A DNA stretch of 64,000 nucleotides from Eurosta solidaginis (taxonomy: Eukaryota > Arthropoda > Insecta > Diptera > Tephritidae). The stretch is taken from contig NC_090319.1 in the NCBI RefSeq assembly GCF_040869045.1, positions 53,106,779 to 53,170,778 of the forward strand. Direction: 5' to 3'. Shown piece after piece: positions 9,501 to 63,261 of the stretch (the stretch's first letter is position 1; each line of letters opens with the position of its first letter). Position numbers and translations under genes: made by a program. The notes under the pieces are model-generated. The model did no database searches and was not told where the DNA came from. It saw only the letters and a program-made list of their open reading frames with translations.

Positions 9501-12500
9501 AAGTGCGTGCACATTAAGCGACGCGACACGTAGCGACACGTTCCGACAAAATATTCGCGGCATTTTTGCCTAGTTGGTCAACTTGGTCTTGTCGTGTCGT
9601 ACGACTGTCGCTATGTGTGCATGGTTCCATAAGAATACATGCAAATAATATTTTGTCGCTACAAGTCGCGTCGTATAATGTGCATGAACCTTAAGTGCGT
9701 TTTCTAAATGTTCGATGAACACTGATCGATAACATAACATGCGATTATGGGCGATTAACTGGCGATCAGCGTCAACCGAAAATGGAGAAACCGCTACTTA
9801 ATGCCATACGGCTTTAAAACTGAATGTTCTTATAAAATGTTTGTTTTTTTTCTTTGCTTTAGCCCAAATTTTTGCCACAGCATGGGCATTCGCCTTACCG
9901 CAAGTAGACAGAAGTTTATATTTTCATCGTCAAAATTATTTTGAAAAAAATGAACAACCAACGCCAATTGTTGGGTCATCATCACCACATGTACAGGATT
10001 CCAAATCAATTGATAGTGGAATAAGTCAAAATAAAACAAAGTACGATCCATTCAAGCTACTCTGGTCACATTTTTATAATGCCTACAGTAATTTAAAAGT
10101 AGTGCAATGGAGTATTTGGTATGCGATTAGTTTGTGTGGTTATTTGCAAATAATTTCATATATACAAGTTTTATGGATTGAAATTGAACCGAATATAGAA
10201 ATTGCTTGGAATGGTGCTGTAGATGCTGTGTTGACTGCATTGGCGGCATTAATGGCTTTAGCAGCTGGTTATATACATGCTGGACGATTGAAACCTCTAC
10301 AAAGTTTATTGGTGTTGTCCGCTTTTGCTGCGCTAGAAGGTGGTGCAGTATTGCTTTGCTGCTGGACGTCGAACATTTATGTTTCATATGTTGGTTATAT
10401 ACTTTTTGCAGCGTTATATGCGTTTAGCATAACTGTGGCAAGGTTAGTAAATAGAGATTTACATAGGTATTGTAACGAATTTTCGGGAGTTCCTGATAAT
10501 TATGCACCTTTTGCTAACGTTCGAATCGCTGAACTATCGAATAAATTACTCCAATATTTTGTATTACAAAATGATCTTTGTTTAGACTACTTTGGGAGTA
10601 CACACAGAGAAAAAACAATTTTAAATCGAACAAAGTTGACTTAGTTAAAGAATTTTGTATGGGGCCCAAGAAATTTGTAAATCCTACCAAAGTACTTACA
10701 CAATTTATGCTCGACAACGGAAACAAAGCTTAGGCTATTTATTACCTAATTTAGTGATTATTTATTAGGATGATGAAAAAACTTAGTAGGTTAATTACTC
10801 TTAGTTGTGGTATACGCGATTTTAAGTTCATTTTACAATAGTTTTTCTCTGTGTGTAGTACTTGACAATCATAATTATAATTCACTAATAGCGTGTTTAC
10901 ATCAAACTGATTGACTATCGCTTGCATCGCGCTGCTTTTATGCTCTCAGTTAGACTCGGTCACCTATTTCTCCAAAGGTCTAGACTTTTCATTAACATGC
11001 CTTCTGGAACAGTTGTATCTCATACTTGGTTATTTAGATATATGTGTGTGTATGTGTGAGTAACAACTTCTGTTCTTAGCTGAGAACAATATATGCATAT
11101 GTGAGATAATCTCTTTGATTTAAGCTGCTGGTTATGTGTGTGAAATATTCTTCGTCGCCTTCTATGTATGTGTGTCAATGGCTAACTGTCATTGTGTTTA
11201 TTTATTAACAGCATAGTGATGTTAGAAATGCTAATTAATAATCACCACAGTATTTAACAAAGCTTCGATTCCGATACATCGGAATTTCCGATTGATTTAG
11301 ACCTCCCGTTCCGACTTTTTGGAATCGGATGTATAACGAAAGTCAATAGAAAAGTTGAATGAAAAAGTGTTGTTCGCACTTTCATAGCAAGTCATAATAA
11401 AATCTTTAACAGTTGATCACAGAAGTTTTCAATATTATTTATTGGCCTTATTTGTATTCCTAATCTTTCAATTTACTTCTCGGCCTTTTGGCTTAGATCA
11501 AGTGTAGTAAGTAGAGTAACCCCACATACAAGCCCACCGTTAGGGGCTACGGTACACCCCATACCCATGGTGGAAACCAACGTAGCATCACCAGTAGAGC
11601 CGTTAACTGCCCACCTCGGTACAAACGCAGATAAACGACGAATAATCGATGCTTTGAACTTATCAAATGACCAAGGGCAATTAGAAGAAGCCTCAGTCGA
11701 AGCTATGAGATACCTATCGAGGTTATCCGTCCGTACAGACCGACAGACTGTGAGAGGAACTCACCCAGGTCGTGGTGGAAGAAACCCCCCCACGCAGAGG
11801 AGGGCTTCAGATCGTATACGGGAGGCCGCCAGACTACAGCGTCTATATATGAACAACAGGAAGAAAGCGGTGCAAGAAATTCTGGCAGGTTCCAATAGGA
11901 CTTGCCAGATACCCTTAGCAACCCTCGAGCACCACTTTCGTACCCTAGCTGCGCCCAGAGACGTCGAGGAAGACTGGCCGAATATATTCCATCGTGAAGA
12001 CCCCTCCACCTCTAGCAACGAGGTATTGACTCGTCCATTCACCAGAGTGAGGTTATGGACAGGCTAAAAGGTCGGGCAAATTAATCTCCCGGTCCTGATG
12101 GCCTGACCTACTCCGACCTGCGGAAGGCCGACACAAAGGCTCAAGTGCTGACAGCGTGGTTCAACGTAGTGCTGAGAACGGAGTCGGTTCCAGTAAAGTG
12201 GAAAGAAAGTCACACAATTCTATTGTACAAAAAGGGCGACTCGAGTGAGGTGGCAAACTGGAGACCGATATCCCTAGGGGACACGGTGCCGAAGCTTTTT
12301 GCCGCGACACTAGCTGACCGGCTAATAAAGTGGGCCATGACCAATAGCCGTATAAGCCCCTCCCAAAAAGGGTTTTTAGAATTTGAAGGGTGTTTTGAGC
12401 ACAATTACGTTCTACAGGAAGTACTGCGTGACGCTAAGAAAAATAAAAAGGAAGCGGTAGTCGCGTGGCTAGATTTTTCCAACGCGTTCACATCCGTTCC

Positions 12501-15500
12501 GCACTCTATAATCTTTAAGTCTCTCGAAGGACATGGCCTACCGAGAAAAATAATTAATGCAATCAATCAGAATTACAACGGCATGACAACACGACTCAAG
12601 GTATCAGAGGGCACGTCCCCGCCCATTAACAAGCAGGCGGGAGTTCGCCAGGGATGCCCCTTGAGTCCTATAGTGTTTGATCCCATTCTGGAGGTCGTCG
12701 TTCGCACGGTGGCCCAAGAAGGGATCGGATACCAACTGGGCAACGCCCTCATTAATAACGTGGCATATGCCGACGACGTGGTGCTAATAGCGGATACCCC
12801 GGCCAATCTGCGAAAACTGCTTGAGGCCGCTGAAAAGGGGGCGAGGGATATTGGGCTTAAATATAATGCTGCGCAACGCTTCACATACCAGGGAGGGGCA
12901 ATGACGTAATGGTTACGAACTTCCAAGTCCAGGGCCAGCCTGTTCGAGCACTCGGGCCAGGGGGGTATTACGACCACCTCGGAGTACCCACTGGCTTCCA
13001 GATTAGACAGACACCGATGAGCACCATAGCTGGTATGCTGAGCGACGTGCGGGCACTGGATCACTCAGGGCTGGCCCCATGGCAGAAGATAGATGCTACG
13101 GCAACGTTTTTATTGCCACGCCTAGACTTTATTTTGCAAGGGGCAGACGTAGACAAAGAGTATTTGAGCGAGGCAGATAAGGTAATAAAGAGAACAGCCA
13201 AACGCTGGATGAACCTGCCCCAACGGGCTAGTCCAGAACTCGTCTTCATGCCGCCCCACAAAGGTGGTGGCGGGCTGCTACCACTGGCAGACCTGACGGA
13301 TCTCCTCACCGTGGCCCATGCATTTAAGATGTTAAGCTCAAAAGACCACGTCGTGAGTGATATAGCGGTTTCATCGCTGAGACAGGCTACGGCGGAAAGG
13401 CAAAGAAAACCAGCATGTCATATAGACATGGCAAGTTACCTGTCCAGCGAATCCAACGTCCCACGTTCAAGTAGTATCGCGAACTATTGGACGACGGTGC
13501 GGACGGCAACGGCCAGAATTAGCAGCAAGGTAAAGCTACGCTGGACATGGTCCTCACCGGAGTCCGAGTTTTGGATCCAGTTTGGTACTCCAACTGATCC
13601 GAACTTCACAGTTGTCGAACCGGGGGACGCCCATCGCATCATTTCGACATTGCGACGGTGTATAACACCACACTACGAAGCCATGCTAATAAACAAACCC
13701 GACCAAGGTAAGGTGTTCGAAGTGACGTGCAGGACACCACCAGCCAACCACTTTCTCCGCTCGGGAAAATTCACCCGCTTTTGCGACTGGCGTTTTATAC
13801 ACCGGGAACGTCTCAATGTCCTCCCATTGAACGCTGCAAAGAGGTGGCTTATAGACGCAGACAAGCGCTACCGCAAGTGCGGAAGAGACCTGGGGACATT
13901 ACCACATGTGCTTAACCACTGCACCCCCCACTCCGCGGCACGACAGCAACGCCACAACACCGTCCAAGACAGACTCGTAAGAGCCCCGAAGTGCCCCGGG
14001 AACGTGAGAGTAAATACAATAGTAGAAGGCTCCCACGGTACTGCTGGCAACCTAAGACCAGACATCGTCATACGGGACGAAGTAAGTCGACGAATCACTC
14101 TGATCGACGTGGCAATTCCGTTCGAAAATAGAGGCGAGACTTTTAAGGATGCTCGGCAGCAAAAGCTACAGAAATGCCAGCCGCTTGCGGACCAGCTATC
14201 GACACTTGGCTACGAAGTCAGAGTGGAGGCTTCTATAGTTGGAGCACTGGGCGGATGGCACCCGGCAAACGAACGAGTCATAAACCTTCTGAACATCACG
14301 CGCTATTATGCAAGCCTGATGAGGAGGCTCATGATAAGCGATACCATCCGCTGGTCGCGGGACATCTATGTGGAGCACGTAAGCGGTACCAGACAATACC
14401 GTGATACACCATCATGAAAATAACACAACCACCAAGTTACCGCCAATAAATGCTTTGTTGGAAATTACAAATTATTAATTGTTATTATCTGTTATATGTG
14501 ATGTTTAGTTATCATTTAAAGTCCTCGTGACTGAAATATATTTCTTGTCAGCAACATGTCAACCTTTACTAATTGTAAGGAGGTTTAAAAATTTTTAAAA
14601 ATATATGTTCTTATCAGCTTAACATCTGATAGATTCTCCATCGGGGAACAAGAAATGTTAAACTGATTTTTGGAAATAGACGGTGTCTAGGGCCTGATCC
14701 ACCTCTGTCATGGGTTGTTCCGACATTGCAGTACAGTCGGAATTTAAACCCGATTTTTATAATTTTTTATAATTACTAAATATGTGCCTGCAATCTAACA
14801 CTCTGACATTGTGTTGATTTCCTTTGCATTGCTTTTCTTTCTACTGGCTACTTCTGTAGATATCGCATGACCCTATTTTTTTTATGCCTTAAATCATGTC
14901 AACCGAAACATACCTTACCAGAAAAGGATTCGAACATTCCAACAATATGCCCTTAAATCGTGAACCTTAAAACGTTTAGATTTTGTCGCCATCCGAAAAA
15001 AAAGTACTACAAAAACTTGCATTCAACTTGCTTCTCATTTGTAGTGGGTTTTAGGTTGCGGCTTCCAAGTTAAGCGCACAACACACCAACGACTTCGGTT
15101 GAGATATCTAAAAAAATAAATACTTCGCACGACATACTTTCGAGGAGTTTCCAACTTGCGTCGTACTACTTTCTAATTTTTCCTACAAAATTGGCAGAAC
15201 AGAACCTACCTACATGTTTTATGCCGACTCTGAACAGAATCTGCCAGGCAGACGTATATTCACTGAGAAACTTTTCATGACATAAATACACTCGGAGTGT
15301 TTGCCAAACCTTTGTTCGCTTAGAAAAAACTTTTCTTAAGTACTTTAATGTTGTTCTTCAGGAACTTGAACCCACGACTTTGGGTGTGGTAGGCGGGCAC
15401 GCTGTCACCACACCACGGCGGCGGCGACCGTAATATTTACACATTTATATAGCTAGTCTGTTGCACCAAGGCAGACGCGTACTTGTAGCCGCACCACTTG

Positions 15501-16198
15501 GTCAACAGATGCTGCAAACCACAGTGAGCCCTAAGTCAAGTATGACGAAGTCTGGATAGTATGGCTGTTTAATTAAGACTGCTTGGCTAGCGATATTATA
15601 ACGCCCTACGACACACGTCTTCTTCTTGTAGTTATAAGGAGACTCCCCGAAGGTTTTGGGGAGTTTTATTGATGTTGATGATGGTCCTTAGCCGCATACA
15701 GATCCGCTTCTTATTAAAGTACAAGCCCGACCATCGCGGTAACGATTTGATATGACCACGTTGACCCTTCTAGGCCATCAAACCATTGGGAGGAATTGCG
15801 TTCGCCAAAGCCTCGCGTGCTGAATAAACAGGATTAACAATTGACTTGAAGAATTTGAAAATTGCTCTATCAACCCCTTGAGTAGGTTATGCCCCACGAC
15901 ACCTTTATTAATAATATCTTTATTAGAAACGAAATTACAATCTCTTTCTGTGTTTTTTTTTACTAATAGCGCTGAAGTGGCACGCTACTTGGAGGAGGAA
16001 AGTTACGGATTTGTGTTTGGTGTCAACACGTTTGTGGCACTAGTTTTTCAAACCTTGCTTACGATAATTGTGGTGTCAAACTCTGGATTCGCTTTGGATA
16101 CACGCGGACAGTATACTGTATATGCATGTTACTTTATCGCGGCTAGTGGCACGTACTTCTTGTCTGTGGCTGTGGAGTACTTAATGAATAGAAGTTAG
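6292..16198 (+). CDS. SLC19-family transporter, copy 1 (exons 3-5)
   Basis: Multi-exon gene for a membrane transporter of the SLC19 (thiamine/folate carrier) family, expected in the plasma membrane with about 12 membrane segments. The visible exons are 6292-6593, 9863-10442 and 15970-16198, giving about 370 residues when joined. All sites are GT-AG: donors at 6594 (gtaagt) and 10443 (gttagt), acceptors ending at 9862 and 15969. Phases fit, giving ...LNYLTLS-T-QIFATAWAF... and ...SITVA-S-AEVARYLEEE.... Family features are YKPL at the exon 3 start, KVTAHTRAAMFLG, and several hydrophobic spans in the last two exons. The exons for the N-terminus (about 73 residues, as in copy 2) are not visible and probably lie upstream of the window. 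Thiamine is the likeliest substrate for insect members, but the sequence does not prove it. Confidence 0.88.
6611..7238. mobile_element. MITE (outer), 17 bp inside the exon 3 donor
   Basis: AAGGCTCCATTACTGATACTT at the left has its reverse complement AAGTATCAGTAATGGAGCCTT at the right. The element sits in SLC19 copy 1 intron 3 and contains a second MITE (6723-6990). No coding capacity. A clear target duplication was not found. Confidence 0.7.
6723..6990. mobile_element. MITE (inner), 8-bp target duplication
   Basis: Ends are CATGGTTCAACTATATACAG and the matching CTGTACATAATTGAACCATG. The flanks ATTAGAAG (6715-6722) and CTTAGAAG (6991-6998) agree at 7 of 8 bases. An 8-bp duplication with CA...TG ends suggests the hAT or P superfamily. 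It lies within the MITE at 6611-7238, so it arrived later. Confidence 0.8.
7323..7837. mobile_element. MITE (outer) in SLC19 intron
   Basis: TACCCTGCTAGACAG (7323-7337) pairs exactly with CTGTCTAGCAGGGTA (7823-7837), with weaker pairing beyond. It contains another MITE at 7355-7592. No coding capacity. Confidence 0.65.
7355..7592. mobile_element. MITE (inner), 8-bp target duplication
   Basis: The inverted ends begin CATTGTGAATGATAAC and end GTTATCATTCACAATG-like, about 31 bases long with one or two mismatches. Flanks ATTTGACG (7347-7354) and ATTTGAGG (7593-7600) agree at 7 of 8. The mode is like that of 6723-6990: CA...TG ends and an 8-bp duplication. Confidence 0.8.
7923..9348. mobile_element. 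Foldback DNA element with internal GGTCATAAGGTCAA repeats
   Basis: The ends GGGGTGCCATAAGGTCAA (left) and TTGACCTTATGCCACCCC (right) are inverted repeats. Inside both ends the phrase 'ggtcataaggtcaattgac' recurs with variation in both orientations. The middle carries an RTE-like LINE insertion (8204-8903). The original element was therefore about 725 bp and non-coding. Its superfamily is unknown. Confidence 0.7.
8204..8903 (+). mobile_element. RTE-like LINE, 5'-truncated 3' end
   Basis: It encodes the C-terminal part of a LINE protein after the reverse transcriptase (GTSINTSN..., YGVEAWTM, RWLRHVMRMNDD, GRGRPPLRW). One frame change occurs near 8520. It is flanked by a perfect 12-bp duplication, AGTTATTCTTAT (8192-8203 and 8904-8915), and ends AATTAAGTAAGTG. 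Dead on arrival. Related copies: 20581-21192, 27981-33295, 46925-48640, 49262-49850 and 57345-57600. RTE-like is a best guess at the clade. Confidence 0.88.
9508..9692. mobile_element. 185-bp MITE
   Basis: TGCACATTAAGCGACGCGAC at the left pairs with GTCGCGTCGTATAATGTGCA at the right. Direct repeats AAGTGCG flank it (9501-9507 and 9693-9699; 7 of 8 when extended by one base). It lies in intron 3 of SLC19 copy 1. Confidence 0.7.
9863..10442 (+). CDS. SLC19 copy 1, exon 4
   Basis: A pyrimidine-rich acceptor (TTTTTTTTCTTTGCTTTAG) ends at 9862. The exon reads QIFATAWAFALPQVDRS..., a polar cytoplasmic loop of about 70 residues, then several membrane segments (VVQWSIWYAISLCGY; LTALAALMALAAGYI; LLVLSAFAALEGGAVLLCC; YVGYILFAALYAFSITV). 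The donor at 10443 is gttagt, phase 2. This corresponds to the central loop and membrane segments from about seven on in the SLC19 fold. Confidence 0.9.
10471..11236 (-). mobile_element. Solo LTR, interrupted by a MITE
   Basis: Read on the minus strand it matches the solo LTR at 50453-50949: the end TGTAACGAATTTT.GGGAGTTCC, then ATCGCT.AACT.T.GAATAAAT.ACTCCAATATT, and AATAGCGTGTTTA.ATC. The 5' edge near 11236 is degraded. A 253-bp MITE sits inside (10602-10854). It starts only 28 bp after the exon 4 donor of SLC19 copy 1. Confidence 0.8.
10602..10854. mobile_element. MITE with CACAGAGA ends, inside a solo LTR
   Basis: The ends ACACAGAGAAAAA and TTTTTCTCTGTGT are inverted repeats. The interrupted LTR reads TTTGGGAGTAC before and GTAGTACTTGACAATC after, while the uninterrupted LTR at 50 kb reads the equivalent of TTTGGGAGTAGTACTTCACAA. 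The element and a short duplication (GGAGTAC/GTAGTAC) are thus defined by an empty site. CAGAGA termini recall hobo-type hAT elements; that assignment is inference. Confidence 0.82.
11474..11507 (+). pseudogene. U2 snRNA, 5' segment (gene split by insertion)
   Basis: The 34 bases carry the U2 snRNA 5' region: CTTCTCGGCCTTTTGGCTTA, then GATCAAGTGTAGTA, which includes the branch-point recognition sequence GTAGTA. They match U2 positions of about 5-38 with one visible change. The sequence departs from U2 immediately after GTAGTA, where a retrotransposon starts. The rest of U2 resumes at about 14602. U2 base-pairs with the intron branch site in the spliceosome; this copy cannot give an intact RNA. 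Confidence 0.9.
11567..12088 (+). pseudogene. Utopia-like ORF, N-terminal segment
   Basis: An open frame from ATG 11567 runs to a stop at 12065-12067. A frame change just before that stop leads into the reverse-transcriptase part, which meets a second stop (TAA at about 12086-12088) directly before SPGPDGLTYSDL. The segment is rich in Arg and basic (GTHPGRGGRNPP..., AARLQRLYMNNRKKAV) and resembles the linker before RT in R2-type proteins. I see no C2H2 finger or Myb motif. Confidence 0.7.
12089..12909 (+). pseudogene. Utopia-like reverse transcriptase domain
   Basis: RT motifs appear in order: SPGPDGLTYSDL at the start, NWRPISLGDTVPKLFA (motif 2), AVVAWLDFSNAFTSVPHS (motif A with catalytic Asp), AGVRQGCPLSPIVFDPILE (motif B) and NVAYADDVVLIAD (motif C, catalytic AspAsp). 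After GLKYN the frame shifts by an indel near 12868, and the next frame continues with the expected KCATLHI-type block. The catalytic residues are intact although the frame is not. Confidence 0.88.
12870..14417 (+). pseudogene. Utopia-like C-terminal domain with REL endonuclease
   Basis: This frame opens at 12870, before its first ATG at 12909, and runs to TGA at 14415-14417. It holds the thumb/linker region, then a knuckle-like stretch YRKCGRDLGTLPHVLNHC, in which the first expected Cys is Tyr, and then the endonuclease core RPDIVIRDEVS..ITLIDVAIPFE, which fits the PD...D pattern of R2-type restriction-like endonucleases. In R2 elements this enzyme nicks the target and starts target-primed reverse transcription. 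The lost Cys may be a further inactivating change. Confidence 0.85.
14602..14757 (+). pseudogene. U2 snRNA, 3' segment (gene split by insertion)
   Basis: U2 resumes with TGTTCTTATCAGCTTAACAT (stem II), an Sm-type stretch and AATGTTAAACTGATTTTTGG, and ends in a stem-loop IV-like hairpin with TTCCGACATTGCAGTACA. Compared from memory with fly U2, about one base in six differs, yet stem IIb and stem IV remain pairable (see findings). Together with 11474-11507 it accounts for nearly the whole U2 RNA. Confidence 0.85.
15030..15625 (-). mobile_element. RTE-like LINE 5' UTR, split by a SINE
   Basis: The two pieces, about 15030-15104 and 15429-15625, match consecutive parts of the LINE leader at about 48260-48500. 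Landmarks are CCAAG..AAGCGCACAAC.C in the first, and ATTTATATAG, CAAG.CAGACGC, TTG.AGCCGCACC and CAGA.GCTGC in the second. A reverse-strand SINE lies between them. This is the 5' end only; no coding remains. Confidence 0.65.
15105..15428 (-). mobile_element. tRNA-derived SINE, diverged, inside a LINE leader
   Basis: On the minus strand it starts at the tRNA-like head (CCGCCGCCGTGGTGTGGTGA), keeps GGGTTCAAGTTCC in place of the B box, and shares CACTCCGAGTGTATTTATG and CATGTAGG with the other copies. More diverged than 541-905 and 19130-19485, so an older insertion. Confidence 0.75.
15626..15895 (+). mobile_element. Second SINE-like family, copy 1
   Basis: It shares ordered blocks with 56190-56525: GGAGACTCCCCGAAGG.TTGGGGAG, CCTTCTAGGCCA, AAACAGGATT and ATC..CCTTGAG..GGTT. 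Non-coding, diverged, ending 75 bp before exon 5 of SLC19 copy 1. Confidence 0.5.
15970..16198 (+). CDS. SLC19 copy 1, exon 5 (C-terminus)
   Basis: The acceptor TTTTTTTTACTAATAG ends at 15969. The first base completes a Ser codon and the exon reads AEVARYLEEESYGFVFGVNT..., with two membrane segments (FVALVFQTLLTIIVV and YFIAASGTYFLSVAVEYLM) and stop TAG at 16196-16198. The SYGFVFG and N-x-F-x-A-L pattern is typical of the last segments of SLC19 carriers. Confidence 0.9.
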
Positions 16199-22501: not shown

Positions 22502-23935
22502 ATGATGAGCAACAACAATACTAAAATAAAAAACCAAACACAGGAGAATGAAATGGCGTTCAATCCATTTGTAGGAAGGAAGCTAGCTCGCTCTCCAGAA
22601 GGGCGTGGCCCATCGGCTGGGGGCCTTAACATTTCGTCGCAAGTGGTAACGAAACCCAAAGGAGCGGAGGCCGAAAGCAAGCAAGGAGCGTTGTCGCCGG
22701 GTGCTACACCGAAGCTTTGCAAAAAGAACTCCGACAGCAAGGCTCAAACGGGCACACCATTATTAAGTGAGCTAATTAAGCAGGCGTCAGCTGCGTTAAA
22801 TCAGCAAAACCCCCCTGGAGAGAAAAAGATGACCAAGCTAGGCAAGGCGATTGAGGACTTGATGCAGTTCTTCATAGGGCGTAATAATATACACGCGGAA
22901 ATCAAGCGCTTGGCCTCCGTAATAAAAGTGCTGTACATCGAGTCGGCCCTAGAGGTAAAGAATTTAGAACATAAATTGCGTGCAAGCGAATGCGCCAAGG
23001 ATAGAAGTCCATCACCCCCAGGAAAGCGACCGAGGAATAATTCGTACTCGACCAAGGAGAACAACGTGGTAAAACCCACTACTACTCTAAAAGATGTCTT
23101 ACCAGGGCACGTGGGTGGACACAAACGACGGCAAGAAACGCAAGAGAAGACGGAGCGGAAAGAGGAAACTGCAGCCCAAAAGACGGGAGAGTGGCAGTTA
23201 GCCAAAAAGAAGAGCAAGAAAAAATCACTTAAGGCTAGGCCGGATGCAATCATCATTTCCAAGGCGGGGGATGCGACGTACGCCGACATATTGCGTAAAG
23301 TGAGAAGATGCGACGAATTAAAATCCCTGGGTGATGACGTCAAAACGATTAGAAGAACGGCGAAAGGAGAGCTGTTACTAGAGCTGAAAAAATCGCAAGA
23401 TGGGAAAACAAGCGCGTACCAAGCAGAAATTGAAGCGGTACTAAAGGACTCGGCTAAAGTTATAACAAAGTCCCAAATGGTCACGCTACAGTGCAGAGAT
23501 CTCGATGAGATTACTACGCCCGAGGAGATTTGCAACGCCCTCCACCAGCAATGCAACATCAAACTTCCAGATGTGGCTGCCATAAAAAGCATACGCACAG
23601 GGTACAGTGGCACGAAGTCGGCACTTATAAGCCTTAGAGCGGATGATGCCAAGGCGGTTCTTAATACGCAAAGAATCCGGGTAGGATGGGTTTCCTGCCG
23701 AATTAGAGAGCTCAAGCAAGAAAAACGCTGTTATAGGTGCTGGGGCTACGGGCATATAGCTCAGAAATGTAAGGAGACTGTAGATAGGTCTAGCCTATGC
23801 AGGAAATGCGGCCAGGAAGGTCATAAGGCTGCAAGTTGCGAAAATGCACCGAAATGCGCGCTATGTGGGGGACAACATTCAGCAGGCAGTTTTAAATGCC
23901 CACAACGAGAGGGCAGCAAAATGACTGTCTCATGA
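22502..23935 (+). CDS. R1-like LINE ORF1 (Gag-like nucleic-acid binding protein)
   Basis: An intact frame of 477 residues. The first 250 residues are polar and basic with Lys-rich stretches (KKKSKKKSLKAR), then comes an RRM-like region (about 250-400), then three zinc knuckles: CYRCWGYGHIAQKC, CRKCGQEGHKAASC and CALCGGQHSAGSFKC. In R1-type elements ORF1 binds the element RNA and helps bring it to chromatin. The stop TGA overlaps the ORF2 start in ATGA (23932-23935), an arrangement known to allow termination-reinitiation in relatives. The 304-codon antisense frame at 22801-23715 is a shadow. Confidence 0.88.
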   Translation: MMSNNNTKIKNQTQENEMAFNPFVGRKLARSPEGRGPSAGGLNISSQVVTKPKGAEAESKQGALSPGATPKLCKKNSDSKAQTGTPLLSELIKQASAALNQQNPPGEKKMTKLGKAIEDLMQFFIGRNNIHAEIKRLASVIKVLYIESALEVKNLEHKLRASECAKDRSPSPPGKRPRNNSYSTKENNVVKPTTTLKDVLPGHVGGHKRRQETQEKTERKEETAAQKTGEWQLAKKKSKKKSLKARPDAIIISKAGDATYADILRKVRRCDELKSLGDDVKTIRRTAKGELLLELKKSQDGKTSAYQAEIEAVLKDSAKVITKSQMVTLQCRDLDEITTPEEICNALHQQCNIKLPDVAAIKSIRTGYSGTKSALISLRADDAKAVLNTQRIRVGWVSCRIRELKQEKRCYRCWGYGHIAQKCKETVDRSSLCRKCGQEGHKAASCENAPKCALCGGQHSAGSFKCPQREGSKMTVS

Positions 23936-26904
23936 GGGTATTGCAGCTCAATTTAAACCATTGCGAGGCAGCCCAAGAGATATTATCCCAAACAGTCTAT
24001 GAAGGAGGATATGACATAGTGGTACTCTCTGAACAATACAAAAATCGCCAGGAGCAGGGTTGGCTCTCAGATTCAGCAGGCAAAGCCTCAATTTGGGCAC
24101 CAGGGAAATTTCTCCCACAGGAAATTATGACGCCAACGGTAGCAGGATTCACGTGGGCAAAAATCAACGGTATATACGTCTTCAGTTGCTATGCCCCTCC
24201 GAGCATGACCATCGCCGAGTTCGAAGACATGATATACGGGATCACCATTGAAGCACGAGGTAAACACCCGCTTTTAGTGTGTGGAGACTTCAATGCATGG
24301 TCATCTGTGTGGGGAAGTAGACGAACCAACGAAAGAGGGAGAGTTCTCCTCGAAAGTCTTACTTCTTTGAGGCTAGAACTCCTAAATGAACCAGGGATAT
24401 ATACCTTCGATACAGGTACCAGACGATCCATTATAGATCTCACCTTCGCTAGCAGCGAAATAGCAAGACGAGCAAAATGGTCCATAAGCAACGTCTACAC
24501 ACACAGCGACCATAAAGCTATTAGCGTAGAGCTGCTCGAAACTCCACGAACGGTAGCAGCAAGACATCGACAAAGTAGGAAATGGAAACAGCACCTTTTC
24601 GACCCACAAATATTTGACATTATCTGGAAGGACGCCATAGTACGAGAATCGCATGCGGAAGACCAGTCGGTTCAAATCACTAAGTTGCTATGTATGGCAT
24701 GTGATGCTGCCATGCCCAGAAGTCGCGGAAAAGCACAGCGCACTCCGGTATATTGGTGGAATGACGAAATTGCGGAAGAGCGTAGAAAATGCCACAAAGC
24801 ACGAAGAATAGCGCAGAGGGCACGCTCATCACCACGATATGCAGAGCTACACAGCACCTATGTCGCACAAAGAAAGGCACTTAAAAATGCCATAAAAAAG
24901 AGCAAGAAGTTATGCTTTAGGGAACTGCTGGATAATGTCGACCTAGATCCTTGGGGATCAGCCTACAGAACTGTGATGGCCAAAGTTAAAGGACCGATAT
25001 CACAGCAACCTACGTGCCCGATACTGATGAATATTATTGTTGAAACACTTTTCCCGGCGCAAGATCGCTGGACTTATCCAAGCGAGGATCTAGAAAGTAC
25101 GGAAATTCCGCAAATTACAGAGCAAGAGGTGCTGGACGCTGCAAAAAGAGTTGCTGATAACAAATCCCCAGGACCCGACGATGTACCAAACATAGCCCTT
25201 AAAGCCGCGATTATAACTAGGGCTACATTATTTACTGATCTTTTTAATGCCTGTATGCAAGAAGGCGTGTTCCCTCGCCCGTGGAAACGACAAAGACTAG
25301 TCCTATTGCTGAAACGTGGTAAACAGCCGGACCAACCATCCTCATATAGGCCACTTTGTATGCTGGATTCCCTAGGGAAGATTTTCGAGCGTATAATTAG
25401 TGAGCGCCTACAGCTGACTCTAGAAAGACCAGGTGGCTTATCGAATAGTCAATATGGATTTCGCAAATCAAGATCCACCGTAGATGCAATACAAACAGTC
25501 GTCAATATAGCTAGAGAAGCTATCTCTGGAGGCCAAAATAAAAGGAAGTTCTGTGCACTGATTATGTTGGACATCAAGAATGCTTTTAACACTGCGAACT
25601 GGATGCAGATAATGGCAGCGCTGCAAAGCTTCGGCACTCCAGCTTACTTACGCAGAATTATAGGTAGCTATCTTAAAGACAGAGTACTTCTTTTTGACAC
25701 GGATCAAGGAGCTAAAGAGTACAAAAACACAGGAGGCGTCCCACAGGGATCTGTTCTCGGTCCAACGCTTTGGAATGTAATGTATGACGGGGTGCTAAAG
25801 ATTGATCTACCAGAAAACACGCAAATTGTGGGATATGCTGATGATATTGCAGTGGTAGTAGTGGCCAAGAAACTGGACCTGCTTCAAGCATTATGTAATG
25901 ACGCCGTAGCAAGAATAAAGGAATGGCTGACCAATACAGGACTGGAGTTGGCTAGCCAAAAGACGGAAGTGGTATTAGTAAGCTCCAAACGGTCGGCGAA
26001 CGAATTAGTCTTAACTGTCGGGGATCATCAAATCACCTCAAAGGATTCCTTAAAATACTTAGGAGTGCACATTGACTCTAAGTTAACTTTCAAAGAGCAC
26101 TTCAGAGCGGTGGGGGAGAAAATTACCAAAGTTAATGGATCACTTATGCGAATAATGCCTAACATTGGTGGTCCGAGCGAAGCTATACGTCAGCTATTGT
26201 CCACAGTAACCAGCTCAATAATACTATACGCAGCACCAGTGTGGTATGGATCTAAACAGACCCATCAAAAATATATATTAGCAGCGTACCGACTTGCTTC
26301 TTTAAGAATAGCAAGTGCTTATCGGACGGTGTCCGACGACGCGATCCTGGTTCTAACCCGGAAAATCCCAGTGGACTTACTGGCAAGCGAAATGGCCGAT
26401 CTGTATAACACTAATATCGAGTGACCATCTGAAGAAGACAAGAAAAGAGCAAGGACACAAACAATAGCTAAGTGGCAAGAACGGTGGGAGGCCTCGAGTA
26501 AAGGGCGTTGGACTTTCACACTAGTTTGGAACGTAGCTCAATGGAATGAGCGGAAGCACGGCGAACTGAACTACCATCTCACGCAAATAATGAGTGGACA
26601 TGGCGGTTTCAAAGAGTATTTATGGAAGCGTAGGATAGAGGAAGATCCTCATTGCCCAATGTGTACCACAGAGTTAGAAAACGCAGAACACGTCATGTTC
26701 TACTGCCCCCGTTTCCACGAAGAAAGACTCACCTTGCATGGAGTCTTTGGGGAGGAACCTACCACAAGAAATTTAGTTTCACATATGTGCAGCAGGAAAG
26801 AATGCTGGACTGCAGTGAGCAAAATGGCATTTATAGTAATGACACGCCTGATGGATGCTGAGAGGGAGCGCAGAGAAATGCGCATGCGAAGCAGTGGTGA
26901 TTAA
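23932..26904 (+). pseudogene. R1-like LINE ORF2 (endonuclease and RT), one stop
   Basis: The frame starts at ATG 23932 and reaches 26904 with a single in-frame TGA at 26422-26424, so about 990 residues with one nonsense codon. Endonuclease of the AP type: LNLNHCEAAQ, SEQY, CGDFNAWSSVWGS and YTHSDHKAISVEL (catalytic Asp-His). RT: SSYRPLCMLDSLGKIFERI, ALIMLDIKNAFNTANW (A), GGVPQGSVLGPTLWN (B) and IVGYADDIAVVV (C). Past the stop comes a C-terminal Cys/His cluster CPMCTTELENAEHVMFYC. The stop is probably a CGA-to-TGA change. Confidence 0.88.
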
Positions 26905-51735: not shown

Positions 51736-52757
51736 GTTAATGCTTGGTTTTCATTTGGTCAAATTAGCTGGTATCAAAAACTACCTCAAACTGACCCGCT
51801 GGTGAGTTGGGATCATGGCGTTTCTAGTATGTCCCATTACTGACTCGAAGTCGATAAAACAGTGCGTGGCCAAAACTGAAGCTAATACTGTTTTCACACA
51901 GAAACTTAATGATCTCATTTCACCTTCTAATGAAATCGTAAATTTTTTGCTTTCACACAGAAGTAACTGCTCGATTAGTATGAAGGATGAAATGTCAAGC
52001 GAATAAAATGACAATGCTATATGACAGACAATCATGGCGGAACGATACAAGGTGGCAGCATGGTGACATACCTACATACATAAATAAGAATTCCATGTAC
52101 TTTGTTTTTGTAAATTCGATGGACAAATGTCAAAATCGTACTGCGCCGGAAGTTGATGTATCAAATCAAATAAAAAAAGGTTATAATCAGCTGTTCGATG
52201 CGGCCACCTTGTATCGTTCCGCCATGCAGACAATGGCATTTATATTGACAAATGACATTTTTAAGCACTGAACACACCAAAAACTAAGAAACTGAACGCT
52301 CCCAACAGAGTTGCATTGTGCTTTTGACTTCATTAGGCATTCGATTAGCTACTAATGAAGTAATTATAGATTCGAATTTTGTAGGGAAGGTTGAGCTCAA
52401 TAAGCGTCTTAATGTAGAAAACTGCCTTTATTATTCAATAAGCCGTCTGTATGAAAACAGTATAAGATTTTGCGTTCATTAATTTCACAACCTCATTCAT
52501 TACTTCTTGTTGTTTCATACGCTGTGGCATTATTTGCTGATGGAACGCCTGTTGGCAAACGAAAATTAATTGCCAACATGTTAGCTAATGAAATTTGAAT
52601 GTCAAATTTTCATACCTTGCTGTTTTCACTTATTGGTCAATTTCGTTTTCATTTCGTAATCAAATCAGACGTCATAAGCATTTGGTGTTGTATGACAAAC
52701 CGTTTTCAGTGATATGGCCAAGTTTTCGGTCAAATATGATCTAGTGAAAACCAAGCA
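51736..52757. mobile_element. DNA element with ATGCTTGGTTTTCA ends, MITE inside
   Basis: ATGCTTGGTTTTCA...GGTCAAATTAG at the left pairs with ...GGTCAAATATGATCTAGTGAAAACCAAGCAT at the right (core of 14 bases exact). Non-coding. It hosts the MITE at 52033-52226. The target duplication is unclear. Confidence 0.5.
52033..52226. mobile_element. 194-bp MITE with perfect 8-bp duplication
   Basis: The ends start CATGGCGGAACGATACAAGG and are perfect inverted repeats for 24 bases. Both sides carry CAGACAAT (52025-52032 and 52227-52234). CA...TG ends with an 8-bp duplication suggest hAT or P-type transposase. No coding capacity. Confidence 0.92.
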
Positions 52758-54215: not shown

Positions 54216-54353
54216 ATGTTCTTTAATAAACAAGAATGGCTGAAAATATCATTTCTTCTGTGCGTATGTGGATTCGCACGCGAAATTCGTCCTAACGAGC
54301 CTTACATAAACGAATATCTGCGGGGCTATGGACACAACTTTACGCAGGATGAG
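54216..54353 (+). CDS. SLC19 copy 2, exon 1
   Basis: ATG 54216 is the first ATG of the frame and lies after AACCAAAG, a favourable fly start context. 46 codons ending NFTQDE, phase 0, donor gtataa at 54354. Confidence 0.85.
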
Positions 54354-57300
54354 GTATAAAACTGAGCCTTATTGAAATGTTAAAATACGCTCGCATCGAT
54401 CGTAGAAGTAAAGGGAGAATCCTTTCGTTTATTTCAGATCAGTCAAAAAATTCTTCCAGCAACAACTTACACCTACTTGGCAGTACTTGTGATAATCTTT
54501 CTCATAACAGATTTGCTGAGGTGAGTTAAAGAAGTAAAGTTTTGCCCACGAAATGAAGTTGGCTAGTTGCTTATTCGCAATGTTTGGAAAACTGCCAGCA
54601 TAGCAGCAACAGTACCTGTGTTACTTTACTGTGAGAATAATTTAAAATTTTTTTTAATATGTTGCGAAAATGTTTAAAGCGAAATCACCTCACAGCTGTT
54701 TTTTTTTTGCTTATCTATACCAAGAATAAGCTATGCGGAAAAATATGTATGATTATCTTTGTCTATAACGGGTCAACCGCAATGATTGAGAGCTCTCAAG
54801 TCCAGGTTGGAATATGATAGTCATTCTATTCGAAATATGTATGTCCAACGGTGGTATCTCGTCTGGTAAAGACATTTTAGAGATGGACCAGGGAATTATA
54901 TGGCCGTCGTCGGTCGTTTCTTTGATTTTCCAACTGGGCACGAGTTCGCGTGAAGTATGCAAGGCGCGAAAAACTCTGAAGAGATTTTAGGACGAGCTTT
55001 TCTTCCAATTTGCGTCGTGCTCCTTTTAATTCCTCAAATTGGCGGGACGGTGCCTACATGTTTTATGCCGCCTCCGAAAGGCATCTGCAAGGCAGATGAA
55101 TTTTCACGGAGAAGCTTTACATGGCAGAAATACACTCGGAGTGTTCGCCAAATGACTGTCGAGGGGCGACCCCGCTTAGAAAAACTTGTTTCTAATTGAA
55201 AAAAAAAAACGTTTTTATAAATTTCCGATGTTACTTTGCCCGTGGTTTGAAGCCAGGATCTTCGGTGTGGTAGGCGGAGCACGCTACCACCACACCACGG
55301 CAGCCGCCATGATTTTTTTTTTTTGAAATTTATCTTTAATTTGAAGTCATTTTCAGAGTGGATAATTTATGTTCAATATTATCATTGCAGAAGGGCGACC
55401 TTGAAAAACTTTTTTCTAATTTAAAAAACTTCTTTATAAATCTTCGATGTTGTTTTGGCCGGCAGTTGAACCTAGGGCCTTTGGTAGACGCAGCACAAAA
55501 ATCTAAAAAGTTTAAAACATCTACAAATAGATACTTGTAGGCACTTATCGTTTTAAAACAAAACCAAACAGTTTAAATTACTGCTGAAAATCTAGAAATA
55601 TAAATTTTCATTTGATAGAAATGCTACAAGGCATATGCCAATTTCACATAGAGGCTTAATGAAATAATTAGTAAAGTTTTAAACTCAATCTTCTATACAA
55701 AATACAAATTCTTAATTATCTCATTATTGCTTTATTGAATGCCTAATCGAGTGAAAAATTCAATTCGATTTGCTTGGCGCTTCGAATTTTATTGTCAATG
55801 TAACAAATGACAATCAAAAATAAATTATTTTTAACAATTTACGAAAAATAGAAAAACACCAAAAATTAAAGATTTTATTTTCGCTGCATTTGCTGCAAAA
55901 GATAATATGGCTTTTTCGAAAATAGGCACATATTTGGTTAGGTGCAACATCTATGGATAGTTCCGCATGCATTTTATTTTGATTGTATTTATAGTTAAGA
56001 AGGAAACGGCTGCTTCACATTTTAACTATTTTTTGTAAAACCGAAATTTTTTTTGCGGCTGCTGACAGATGTTCGCTTAATGAACCAAAGGCCCTGTATG
56101 AAAAGGAAAACTTAATTGTTTCATTAAATAGAATTGTGATTCCATTAAGTTTCTGTGCGAAAACGGTAATAGATTCCTTTTCACATCATTTTCTTTCTTT
56201 TGCTTTTGTTGTTGTTGCCATAAGGATACTCGCCGAAGGCCTTGGGGAGTGTCATCCATCTCGGGAACGATTTGTTCTGACCACTTGCGACCTTCTAGGC
56301 CACACCGACCTCCCAGCCCCTAGATCCATGAGGAATTCGGGGTCGCCAGAGCTTCGGCTGTTAATGAAACAGGATTCGCTACGTATACGTGAAGTTGACA
56401 ATTAGGTTGGAGAAGCTATATATTGCGCTGGCATCCCCTTGAGAGGGTTGCGCTACACAACTCCTTGAATCTATTTGGTATTTTAGTCGCCTCTTACAAC
56501 AGGCATACCTACCGCGGGTTTAGTGATAAACCAAATATTTTATTTATTTTATTAATTAAATTTTTATTTATTCAGAGTTTCAATATTTTACAAACTAATT
56601 AGAATTTTCTTTTATTTGAAGTATCCAAAAATTTTCAAGTTTAAACGAAAACTTAATTAAAAATTATTTTTTAAAATTAAAGTACCTACAAAGTAAAAAG
56701 TAGTTAACACCATGGTATAAATATTACCAGGTGAAACCATTTACTCTTCTTTGCGGCCATAATGGTTTTTTGATTTTTAAAAAAACTAACTAAGGCCTAT
56801 CAGCTCATTAAATTTTTTACAATAATAAGTACTTGCAAGGCTATCAAAAATCAGCAATATTTTTAAAAAAATTTTAAAATCACTCTCTTAAACTTTGTGG
56901 AAATGGCAAACCAAAGTAAACACAAAAAAAAATTGTTGGTTTGACATTTTCATTTTTTTAATACCAAAAAAATAAAATGCTTATGAAATAAGTGAAAAAA
57001 TATTTCGAAAAGTTTTGAAATCGGTTCTTATGTATATGGCAAAAAATCAATTACCAATATAATGCATGCCTCAACACGTGCTATTTTTGTAAATGGACAA
57101 AAGAAAGGCCTTACATCTTAACCTCTTCTAATTAAGAAGCGAATGTTGGAGACCACCCCTATTGATTTTTCATTCCTCCTTCTTCACTTGGTTGATACGT
57201 TTTTAACTCTTAAATATGCTGAAACTTCACTTTATAAGAGATCACCAGTCTCAAGTGTCTTCCCTACTGCGGACAGAAATGATCTTGGAGATATTCTTTG

Positions 57301-60300: not shown

Positions 60301-63114
60301 CTAGAATTTGTTTGTACAATATGGGTATCAAAAGAAAGGTGGTAATGACTATTTTAAAAGGGAGTAATCCTTAGTTCCATAGGTGGACGCCGTTTCGAGA
60401 TATCGCCATAAAGGTGGAGCAGGGTGACCCTAGAATTTGTTTGTACAGTATGGGTATCAAAAGAAAGGTGTTAATGAGTTTTTTAAAAGGGAGTAATCCT
60501 TAATTCCATAGGTGGACGCCGTTTCGAGATATCGCCATAAAGGTGGGCCAGGGGTGACTCTAGAATTCGTTTGTGCAATATGGGTATCAAACGAAAGGAG
60601 TTAATGAGTATTTTAAAAGGGAGTGGGCCTTAGTTCTATAGGTGGACGCCTTTTCGAGGTATCGCAATAAAGGTGGACCAGGGGTTACTCTGGACTTTGT
60701 TTGTGCGATATGGGTATCAAATGAAAGGTGTTAATGAGTATATTTAAAAGGGAGTGGGCCTTCGTTCTATAGGTGTTCGCCTTTTCGAGATATCGCCATA
60801 AAGGTTGACCAGGGGTGACTTTAGAATATGTTTGTACGATATGGGTATCAAATGAAAGGTGTTAATGAGTATTTTAAAAGGGCGTGGGGCTTAGTTCTAT
60901 AGGTGGACGCCTTTTCGAGATATCGCCATAAAGGTGGACTAGGGGTGACTCTAGAATGGGTTTGTACGATATGGGTATCAAATTAAAGGCATTAATGAGG
61001 GTTTTAAAAGTGAGTGGTGGTAGTTGTATATGTGAAGGCGTTTTCCAGATATCGACCAAAATGTGGACCAGAGTGACCCAGAACAGTATCTGTTGGATAC
61101 CGCTAATTTATTTATATATGTAATACCTGCCAAGATTTTAAGGGTTTTTTATTTCGCCCTGCAGAACCTTTTCATTTTCTTCTACATAATATGGTAGGTG
61201 TCAGAACCATTTTATAAAGTTTTTTCTAAAGTTATATTTCGCGTCAATAAAACAATCCAATTACCTTACCATGTTTCATCCCTTTTTTCGTATTTGGTAT
61301 AGAATTATGGCATTTTTTTCATTTTTCGTAATTTTCGATATCGAAAAAGTGGGCGTGGTCATAGTCGGGTTTCGTTCATTTTTCATACCAAGATAAAGTG
61401 AGTTCAAGTAAGCACGTGAACTAAGTTCATTAAAGATATGTCGATTTTTGCTCAAGTTATCGTGTTAACGGCCATGTGGAAGGACAGACGGACGACTGTG
61501 TATAAAAACTGGGCGTGGCATCAACCGATTCCGCCCATTGTCACAGAAAACAGTTAACGTCATAAAATCTATGCGCATACCAAATTTCAAAAGGATTGGT
61601 TAATTTTTGTTCGACTTATGGCGTTAAAAGTATCCTAGACAAATTAAATGAAAAAGGGTGGAGCATTTTGAAATTTTCTTTTATTTTTGTATTTTGTTGC
61701 ACCACATCATTACTGGAGTTGAATGTTGACATAATTTACTTATATACTGTAAAGATATTAAATTTTTTGTTAAAATTTTACTTAAAAAATTTTTTTTTAA
61801 ACGTGGGCGTGGTCCTTCTCCGATTTTGTTAATTTTTATTAAGCGTACATATAGTAATAGGAGTAACGTTCCTGCCAAATTTCATCATGATATCTTCAAC
61901 GACTGCTAAATTACAGCTTGCAAAAGTTTTAAATTACCTTCTTTTAAAAGTGGGCGGTGCCACGCCCATTGTCCAAAATTTTACTAACTTTCTATTCTGC
62001 GTCATAAGTTCAACTCATCTACCAAGTTTCGTCGCTTTATCTGTCTTTTGTAATGAATTATCGCACTTTTTCGGTTTTTCGAAATTTTCGATATCGAAAA
62101 AGTGGGCGTGGTTATAGTCCGATATCGTTCATTTTAAATAGCGATCTGAGATGAGCGCTCAGGAACCTACATACCAAATTTCATCAAGATACCTCAAAAT
62201 TTACTCAAGTTATCGTGTTAACGGCATGGCTCAAATTTTTTTTCGATCTTGATTATTTTGATATATGGAAGTCTATATCTATCTCGATTCCTTTATATAT
62301 GTACAACCAACCGTTATCCAATCAAACTTAATATACTCTGTGAGCTCTGCTCAACTGAGTATAATTAGAAGAAAGAACAACACTCTGTTAACTCTTCTGA
62401 GTACCTCAGCGGTGAATATGGCCTTCTATTGTTGACCACTAATATAGTTCATGGAACAGCTTTTAAGCTGTAATGGTAGGTTAGGACACTCAGTTTTTCC
62501 TAGAAGCGTGACTTTCCATGCCGAAGTCTTTTAGTAGGCAAAGGACGACTAATATGGTCCGTCGGAAGGATTTTTATTGATAAAAATGAACCTATGTCGA
62601 CTCTACACTATTTTATTTCGGAGCATGTGCCAGCTAAATTGGGCAATATTAATCTCAAATTGAGGGTTTAGTTTGCGTTTAAACATGCTCGCCGTCCTGA
62701 TTATTTTGGTAAACTTAATTCTCTTCGTTGGTTAAAAACAAATTTCGACATATTTGTAAAATCTATTAAATAAAATTTAAATGTTTACATATTTTTTTGT
62801 TTCTTTCTACAGGTACAAGCCATTACTAATTATAATGGGCCTTTTTGGCACAATAATGTCATCTATGCTGATTTGGACAACGTCTCTAATTTGTGCACAA
62901 ATTGCGATGGCTTTCTACGGCATGTTTTTGGCCTGTGAAGTGGCTTATTTCGCATATATTTATACCAAAGTGGATAAACCATATTATTCCAAAGTCACTG
63001 CTCATACACGCGCTGCCATGTTTCTAGGGCAACTAGTCGCTGGGATGTTATCACAAATCCTTCTTTATTTTGATATAGCTGATTATAAATCATTGAATTA
63101 CATGACTTTGTGCG
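54216..63114 (+). CDS. SLC19-family transporter, copy 2 (exons 1-3, incomplete)
   Basis: The first three exons of a second SLC19-type (thiamine/folate carrier family) transporter: 54216-54353, 54438-54520 and 62813-63114, with the rest beyond the right edge. Joined they give about 174 residues. The start reads MFFNKQEWLKISFLLCVCGF, the first membrane segment, followed by the family-typical REIRPNEPYINEYL. Exon 2 holds TYTYLAVLVIIFLITDLLR (second membrane segment) and exon 3 starts YKPLLIIMGLFGT and contains KVTAHTRAAMFLG. Intron 1 is 84 bp, intron 2 is 8.3 kb and full of repeats. It lies downstream of copy 1 on the same strand, so a tandem duplication. Substrate unproven. Confidence 0.9.
54438..54520 (+). 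CDS. SLC19 copy 2, exon 2
   Basis: Acceptor TTTATTTCAG ends at 54437. 83 bases reading ISQKILPATTYTYLAVLVII..., ending in a split Arg codon (AG) before the donor gtgagt at 54521. Confidence 0.88.
54990..55313 (-). mobile_element. tRNA-derived SINE, reverse strand
   Basis: On the minus strand: head GGCTGCCGTGGTGTGGTGGT, body CTAAGCGGGGTCGCCCCTCG, then CATGTAGGCACCGTCCCGCC and GGAGCACGACGCAAATTGGA. In intron 2 of SLC19 copy 2. Confidence 0.82.
55383..55500 (-). mobile_element. SINE remnant
   Basis: GGGCGACCTTGAAAAACTTT, TTTCTAATTTAAAAAACTT and the run TTCGATGTTGTTTTGGCCGG repeat, in diverged form, the tRNA-proximal part of the neighbouring SINE at 54990-55313. No 3' part. Confidence 0.45.
55501..56189. 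other. Intronic AT-rich DNA, nothing recognised
   Basis: In intron 2 of SLC19 copy 2. The phrase TTAAGTTTCTGTG.GAAAAC near 56145 is the reverse complement of one at 51892-51911 in the element at 51736-52757, hinting at a related old DNA element, but ends cannot be defined. Confidence 0.4.
56190..56525 (+). mobile_element. Second SINE-like family, copy 2
   Basis: Shares ordered blocks with 15626-15895 (CTCGCCGAAGGCCTTGGGGA, CTTCTAGGCCA, AAACAGGATTCGC, CATCCCCTTGAGAGGGTTG) and continues to TAGTCGCCTCTTACAACAGG and CATACCTACCGCGGGT, a 3' end I recognise as common in tephritid repeats. Non-coding. Confidence 0.6.
56526..57344. other. Intronic AT-rich DNA, nothing recognised
   Basis: Very AT-rich; short hydrophobic frame at 57143-57403 without a domain. 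Confidence 0.4.
57345..57600 (-). mobile_element. Very old RTE-like LINE tail
   Basis: GGCGCTTAACCATTTAGGAG, the run about CAGTCGCTC/AGTCACTCC, ACTGACGCCAACAGGGGGCACC and TCTTCCCCCACCTG follow the order of the last 250 bases of the family (compare 28005-28140). Heavily diverged; recognised mainly by order. A SINE head fragment (CCGCCGTGGTGTAGAGC) follows at 57618. Confidence 0.55.
58094..58597. mobile_element. Element bounded by perfect 25-bp inverted repeats
   Basis: 58094-58118 (begins GTAATTCTATACGACAGC) and 58573-58597 (ends GCTGTCGTATAGAATTAC) are exact reverse complements. The 450 bases between are non-coding. No target duplication was found, so the true ends may lie further out. Confidence 0.6.
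58600..59148. other. Intronic DNA, nothing recognised
   Basis: AT-rich, with the repeated phrase TACCTAGTTTA.ATA at 58847-58875. No gene or paired ends. Confidence 0.4.
59149..62364 (+). mobile_element. R element, third long copy
   Basis: Begins ACAAGTAAGGAAGGTTAAGT and ends CTGCTCAACTGAGTATAA like the copy at 41112-45084, to which it is very similar throughout. About 14 monomers (59260-61075), then the non-tandem region. Its terminal region keeps more of the AACCAACCGTTATCCAATCA block than the copy at 45 kb. In intron 2 of SLC19 copy 2. Confidence 0.87.
59260..61075 (+). repeat. Tandem array of 130-bp monomers
   Basis: The monomer and variants are the same as at 41220-43950. The AGTGGTGGTTGTTGTATAGG-type variant falls at 59715 and 60235, 520 bases (four monomers) apart, so the higher-order unit differs in size between copies. 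Confidence 0.88.
62365..62812. other. Intronic DNA before exon 3, nothing recognised
   Basis: No repeat ends or frames of note; the last 30 bases are a pyrimidine-rich acceptor (ATATTTTTTTGTTTCTTTCTACAG). Confidence 0.5.
62813..63114 (+). CDS. SLC19 copy 2, exon 3
   Basis: Acceptor TTTCTACAG ends at 62812. The exon has 302 bases, exactly the length of exon 3 in copy 1, with the same split Arg codon at the start and phase 1 end (donor gtgggt at 63115). Reads YKPLLIIMGLFGTIMSSMLI and later VDKPYYSKVTAHTRAAMFLG. Confidence 0.9.
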
Positions 63115-63261
63115 GTGGGTTTATATGTATAAAACTACTAGCGTCGGTTTCTCAGTGTTTGTCTAACGCATTATTGATCTTAATTTGAGAGAAATTTCGC
63201 TGATCCGATATTACAGATAAAACCTGCTGAAAATATCAGTGGTGATATTTTCTAACTTATT

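Follow-up and report, generated by a model that had tools for sequence, protein, structure and literature searches.

Utopia belongs to the NeSL clade of retrotransposons, encodes a restriction-like endonuclease (RLE) and inserts between nucleotides (nt) 38 and 39 of U2 small nuclear RNA (snRNA) genes, in arthropods without target duplication (Kojima and Jurka 2015, PMC4640811). In that paper U2 is the 5′ flank in 11 families and forms both flanks in 10, and the U2 site, the weak specificity in some hosts and the presence in a fly are already known from it. As far as its main text goes, it discusses the persistence of Utopia and not its transcription, and the word 'promoter' is missing there. 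We found no report in the open-licence literature of U2-headed copies of a long interspersed element (LINE) or of transcription of Utopia from a U2 promoter. Here we describe a Utopia-type copy in a window of 64,000 nt of the tephritid fly Eurosta solidaginis (the whole stretch analysed, NC_090319.1, positions 53,106,779 to 53,170,778), together with 39 further loci of the element taken for comparison. Full-length copies dispersed in the genome start with U2 letters, suggesting a read-out of the element from the beginning of U2 genes.

The Eurosta element resembles Utopia in its site at U2 38/39, the absence of a duplication in the window copy, an RLE accompanied by a CCHC motif, relaxed families with U2-like sites and arthropod hosts that include a fly (PMC4640811). 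It differs in that its dispersed copies have inherited a 5′ head made of U2 nt 1-38. Keno, a U2-targeting element of the Tx1 type, has the same 3′ U2 junction but an apurinic-like endonuclease, whereas the Eurosta element has an RLE (PMC4640811). For R2 it has been proposed that 28S sequence kept from upstream of the insertion pairs with the target, after which junction variants are passed on, and this retention of host sequence upstream of the insertion on the RNA (PMC3774820) is what we propose for the Eurosta element. In many R2s the 5′ end is, however, made by a ribozyme like that of hepatitis delta virus, whereas in six Eurosta copies (L002-L006 and L008) no ribozyme family was matched in Rfam at E≤1, a search that divergent ribozymes can escape, and the end lies at the start of the host gene. 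By reverse transcriptase (RT) R2 is also a separate clade. The nearest precedent is SINEU, reportedly described by Kojima in 2015 as crocodilian short interspersed elements (SINEs) with U1- or U2-derived heads, which are short and non-autonomous; in contrast, the Eurosta element is an autonomous-type LINE that itself targets U2, in another host group.

An element at the Utopia site of a U2 copy

The original prediction, made from the letters of the window, placed an RLE-type LINE of the Utopia kind in a U2 gene right after GTAGTA, with the break at about U2 position 38-40. Both statements are borne out, since the element lies between U2 nt 38 and 39, directly 3′ of GTAGTA, which is the published Utopia site. 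The two halves of the split gene match Rfam RF00004, the 3′ half at 14581-14758 with 80.6 bits (E 2.6e-14) and the 5′ half at 11472-11562 with 40.8 bits (E 9.3e-5), the latter under the gathering score of 46, as expected because this piece is only 38 bases long. By direct reading, the first four bases of the 5′ part are diverged and are followed by CTTCTCGG from 11476 and GTGTAGTA up to 11509. The element ends with ...AAAAATA at 14603 and U2 begins again from nt 39 (T, 14604), the following C40 being an A here; a two-base target loss would give the same reading of this junction. Three bases (AGT) at the 5′ junction belong neither to U2 nor to the other copies, whose matches start at 11513, and the window copy has no target site duplication. 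When joined, the flanks can be aligned to intact U2 genes found elsewhere in this genome, and the 3′ half is 94% identical to the U2 gene L049 over 153 columns. The U2 copy had been taken to read normally; it is a divergent member of class B, one of the two U2 classes of this genome.

Positions 11513-14603 of the window are an RLE-type LINE of Utopia type. The RT and the PD...D endonuclease region that had been predicted are both present, but in a copy that is 5′-truncated and frame-broken: remnants of the open reading frame (ORF) lie at 11567-12067, 12145-12909 and 12909-14417 in shifting frames, and full-length copies extend about 1.3 kb further in the 5′ direction, as judged by upstream similarity among L002-L008. 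In the homologous ORF of L003 the RT matches PF00078 (RVT_1), the sole Pfam domain, and in the C-terminal RLE region, the second domain, the CCHC, PD and D residues coincide by eye with those of aligned R2 chains. Stretches of N-terminal zinc-finger type (C-x2-C...H-x4-H and C-x2-C, by eye) lie upstream of the L003 ORF, where they are stop-interrupted, and this region is gone from the truncated window copy.

The RT of L003 groups with proteins of Nasonia, Trichogramma and an ant (Ooceraea) with support of 100/99 to 99/96, and the three R2 chains stand outside this group. The rows of this tree are unnamed or organism-named proteins and the R2 chains, and the name Utopia rests on the hosts listed in PMC4640811. 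The original prediction had asked for a tree with Utopia, R2, NeSL and R4 elements; of these, the rows include R2 under its own label. With its RT outside the R2-chain group and its site in U2 rather than 28S, the element is not a member of R2.

The DNA search, which scored 40 of 190 candidates, gave at least 56 genomic matches to the window stretch; repeat counts from this and from the protein search (80 of 47955 candidates scored) are lower bounds. A body tree of 40 rows has the shape of a ladder, within which the window copy is placed (end branch 0.019); the window copy and the dispersed copies are thus members of one evolving lineage. The protein search also returned older Utopia relatives with about 54-78% protein identity and many stops, at G000 C1:338290531, C5:68165047, C2:204800175, C6:123294533 and other places; the U2 head was checked in one of them, L088. 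The L020 copy has inserted into an older Utopia-like relative, whose decayed RT lies on the minus strand of L020 (1-665).

U2 heads and target sites of the dispersed copies

The first seven full-length copies read (L002-L008) all begin with the 5′ end of U2. Such a head is present in 18 of 22 copies with upstream sequence, and the other four are truncated inside the element. A 5′ census, in which all 34 candidates were scored, gave 21 element rows, four class-A U2 genes and nine stand-alone U2 fragments. Nineteen of the 21 element rows reach the head (the 18 known and L087), L075 is truncated, and the remaining row, L088, is an older copy with a diverged head. Heads are thus found on 20 of the 20 copies that reach the 5′ end, or 19 if the duplicate pair L007/L071 is counted once. 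Among the young copies, 19 in number, the first head base is at nt 1-5 of U2-A in 16 cases (nt 1 in three, nt 2 in six, nt 3 in three, nt 4 in three and nt 5 in one) and at nt 8, 9 and 10 in one each, and none starts upstream of +1. The heads follow U2-A and end at nt 31-38, where the Utopia site of the class-A gene falls at 39/40; they are of class A and the window U2 is of class B.

No U2 promoter was detected upstream of the 19 headed and nine stand-alone loci, where the best result was one 13-base match with E 0.23, and a U2 promoter before the headed copies was rejected on this search. L088 was considered as a U2-resident copy and rejected, as its upstream 110 bases are unlike U2 promoters: 8 of 300 shuffles scored as well against L050, and 137 to 288 of 300 against five other U2 promoters. 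In L003 (202-300), GATCAAA of U2 is inversely complementary to TTTGATC, with which the element begins, and the two form a predicted stem; the predicted fold with GAUCAAA-UUUGAUC pairing had a z of -2.7 and was equalled by 3 of 200 shuffles, and no function is claimed for it.

The junction between head and element is of two types, I (GTGTAGTTAATCAATAAAC...) and II (GTGTTCAAAAGTTTGATC), which are split by a single change on a 5′ body tree with support 99/96. This tree has 22 rows, 18 of them typed, and excludes L087 (280 bases); junction variants were typed by hand, L002, L004 and L073 as type I and L006, L007 and L071 as type II. The older copy L088, identical to L008 in 251 of 297 aligned columns, carries the type I signature TTAATCAATAAA. 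Since one body-tree change splits the types and L088 has this signature, the junction is inherited. Over 18 heads (the duplicate L071 omitted and one extra base of L077 set aside), 9 of 510 sites are substituted relative to U2-A, six of them in loop nt 15-17, and outside the loop 3 of 456 sites differ. A16T occurs in four heads of both junction types and is identical to a variant of the U2 gene L057. This likeness of the heads to host U2 would be expected if they were exchanged with U2 genes or copied afresh from them.

The original prediction proposed to check whether all insertions share the U2 junction; none of the 28 other resolved 3′ junctions is in U2 (1 of 29 with the window included). 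It also held that copies lying at random sites would make the U2 location coincidental. Copies do lie at other sites; yet because their sites resemble the U2 site and the full-length copies begin with U2, the location is not a coincidence. At U2 nt 40-44 the flanks agree with U2 in 67 of 140 comparisons, where positions drawn at random from these flanks give 36.4 ± 5.2, with a p of 5e-5, the smallest value possible with 20000 draws. The corresponding figures were 56 of 115 against 30.1 ± 4.7 for copies whose end reads TA only (n=23) and 48 of 100 against 26.3 ± 4.4 with one copy per repeat target (n=20). The test covered 28 of 39 loci; the others had non-standard 3′ ends (L019, L025, L044), an unreached 3′ end (L029, L034, L035, L045) or were duplicates (L032, L040, L046, L047). 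Since junction positions were set by hand, nt 39 is biased and nt 40-44 are the decisive test; U2 nt 45 shows no target preference.

Four copies (L014, L016, L017 and L030) hit a satellite of about 130 bp with empty units CTAGAATCTGTTTGTACG or near variants, at GAA/TCTGTT, the U2 cut being at GTA/TCTGTT. Small deletions accompany these insertions (by eye), and the 5′ flank of L087 also lies within the satellite. In a second repeat L023, L038 and L039 are all inserted at one place, and the copy L004/L011 has an apparent 10-base target duplication. Utopia of Eurosta has relaxed targeting, prefers U2-like TCTGTT sites and mostly lands outside U2; a similar relaxation is described for crocodilian Utopia (PMC4640811). 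The window itself contains empty units of the satellite at about 31.6-32.9 kb (minus strand), 41.4-43.8 kb and 59.5-60.1 kb.

The nine stand-alone loci (L078-L086, of which L078 and L084 are duplicates) are class-A U2 5′ fragments without the element. They start at nt 1-3 (L084 is diverged) and end at nt 30-37 in eight cases and at nt 60 in one. A U2-headed SINE was rejected for them, since they lack the 3′ end of the element and match no Utopia protein below E 0.4. An apparent target duplication of 10 bases is present in L079, and none was seen by eye in the others. In L078 and L084 about 16 bases past the head align with L006.

U2 genes and surroundings of the window copy

The search for intact U2 genes and other copies proposed in the original prediction yielded 12 U2 loci besides the element matches. 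The U2 inventory rests on one DNA query, the 3′ part of the window U2, with 12 of 12 candidates scored. Class A comprises L053, L054, L056 and L057, plus L058 without its 5′ part; class B comprises the intact L049 and L050 and the diverged L051, L052, L055 and window copies; L059 is a fragment. The four intact genes that were scanned (L049, L050, L054 and L057) score 164-178 Rfam bits. Among the intact-looking genes (L049, L050, L053, L054, L056 and L057) the classes differ in stem-loop I, in bases of stem IIa and in the 3′ stems. Utopia was sought in other U2 genes with the L003 protein (tblastn over eight loci around U2 copies) and none was found, and the six intact-looking genes are uninterrupted across the site. 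A U5 snRNA match of 83.4 bits lies at 2251-2369 of L050, near its class-B U2 gene.

The insertion had been placed within an intron, and this is upheld by the exons of a thiamine-transporter gene that enclose it on the same strand (Table 1). They were located by tblastn of P0082 (thiamine transporter 1-like, Eurosta solidaginis), the protein nearest to the flanking exon. A Utopia in fly-type DNA had been thought worth documenting; the host is indeed a fly, but the occurrence is not new, as Drosophila yakuba is already in Table 1 of PMC4640811. Further downstream, exons of a second thiamine-transporter paralogue (P0090) lie at 54216-54521 and 62811-63116. Two adjoining long ORFs (477 and 842 aa) at 22502-26424 resemble by eye the protein pair of a LINE of the apurinic/apyrimidinic endonuclease (APE) type. 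A long inverted repeat at 52037-52223 (minus strand) matches a plant microRNA model with 43.1 bits against a gathering score of 60 and is probably a transposon hairpin.

Table 1. Features at the insertion locus, in window positions
Feature	Position	Strand	Basis
Exon, thiamine transporter 1-like (SLC19 / Folate_carrier), upstream of insertion	9835..10485	+	tblastn P0082; Pfam PF01770
5′ part of class-B U2 snRNA gene copy (U2 nt 1-38)	11472..11509	+	Rfam match; alignment with same-genome U2 loci
Three extra bases (AGT), 5′ junction	11510..11512	+	window sequence compared with 5′ sequences of copies
5′-truncated Utopia-type retrotransposon copy	11513..14603	+	genome matches begin at 11513 at earliest
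Broken ORF remnants: RT, CCHC motif, PD...D endonuclease region	11567..14417	+	ORF list; L003 Pfam PF00078; R2-chain alignment
3′ part of class-B U2 snRNA gene copy (U2 nt 39 to end)	14604..14758	+	Rfam 80.6 bits; 94% to L049
Last exon, thiamine transporter 1-like, downstream of insertion	15968..16195	+	tblastn, 100% to P0082

Origin of the U2 head

We infer from the heads that a U2 promoter is used, that source copies reside in U2 genes and that annealing occurs on target. In this view a class-A U2 gene holds a source copy at its Utopia site; the source copy would be transcribed from the U2 promoter, and its RNA would begin at the U2 transcription start and carry U2 nt 1 to about 38 as an untrimmed 5′ leader. 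On target, the U2 part of the complementary DNA would anneal to the upstream U2 half and leave no trace, whereas off target the leader would stay as a head. The inherited junction variants fit the same logic as the annealing of the R2 leader and the propagation of its variants (PMC3774820). On the strength of these sequence comparisons we think it fairly probable that this is a relaxed Utopia whose RNA comes from U2-resident source copies, starts at +1 of U2 and retains the 5′ half of U2, and that its off-target copies fossilise the 5′ end of that RNA. The fuller proposal, that the U2 gene serves as insertion site, as promoter giving RNA from U2 +1 and as homology arm for precise integration, with a head that can be refreshed from host U2, appears to us evenly balanced between right and wrong.

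Several observations weigh against a U2-resident source. No U2-resident full-length copy is present among the 12 U2 loci, the window being the only holder, with a truncated element and in class B rather than A; the U2 inventory may be incomplete. The recurrence of A16T could reflect a mutational hot spot in the U2 loop, where six of the nine substitutions lie. The type I junction is old, being common to L088, and is also explained by a head captured from U2. The stand-alone fragments, lacking the element, indicate that U2 5′ pieces enter the genome by another route as well. Persistence of Utopia in an unfixed state, as proposed in PMC4640811, would explain the absence of a resident copy but is not evidence for one.

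A captured head is retained as the main rival because no resident source was found and U2 5′ pieces enter by a route of their own. Here a U2 5′ piece would have been fused to the element once, long ago, to become its first 31-38 bases, and the copies would use internal or neighbouring promoters, with transcripts beginning at the head and no U2-resident source. An inherited junction shared with an older copy, an assembly that as searched holds no resident full-length copy, and fragments showing that U2 5′ pieces were available all agree with such a capture. Yet heads that start at U2 +1 and end at or just before the Utopia site are what a resident copy predicts, and the near identity outside the loop together with A16T in both junction types looks as if the heads had remained in contact with U2 genes. 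The promoters of snRNA genes sit upstream of the transcribed part, so the head alone would bring no promoter, which also counts against capture, and we consider this history unlikely, if still a serious competitor of the U2-resident source.

Heads could alternatively arise by template jumping, the RT leaving the element RNA for U2 snRNA or a fragment of it and acquiring a new head at each insertion. Chimeras of U6 and LINE sequence are a precedent for such jumps, and element-free U2 5′ fragments ending at nt 30-37 are present in this genome. The junction types, however, follow the body tree with one change, type I is common to the older copy, and no U2 head is found on any of 17 copies whose truncation lies in the portion of the element that the window copy covers; inheritance of the junction contradicts a fresh head at each insertion, and template jumping is accordingly left with very little probability. 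Still more improbable is a chance landing in a U2 copy by a dispersed element without target preference. The absence of other U2 junctions among the 28 resolved speaks for it, but it is contradicted by the exact published site, the U2-like target signature, the RT grouping and the U2 heads.

The wider interest lies in the expression and persistence of an element restricted to a few snRNA genes. The U2-headed dispersed copies of Eurosta offer a genomic read-out of the RNA 5′ end, which would point to the U2 start site, and the U2 heads are a parallel to the leader that R2 takes from upstream 28S sequence, here with no ribozyme detected.

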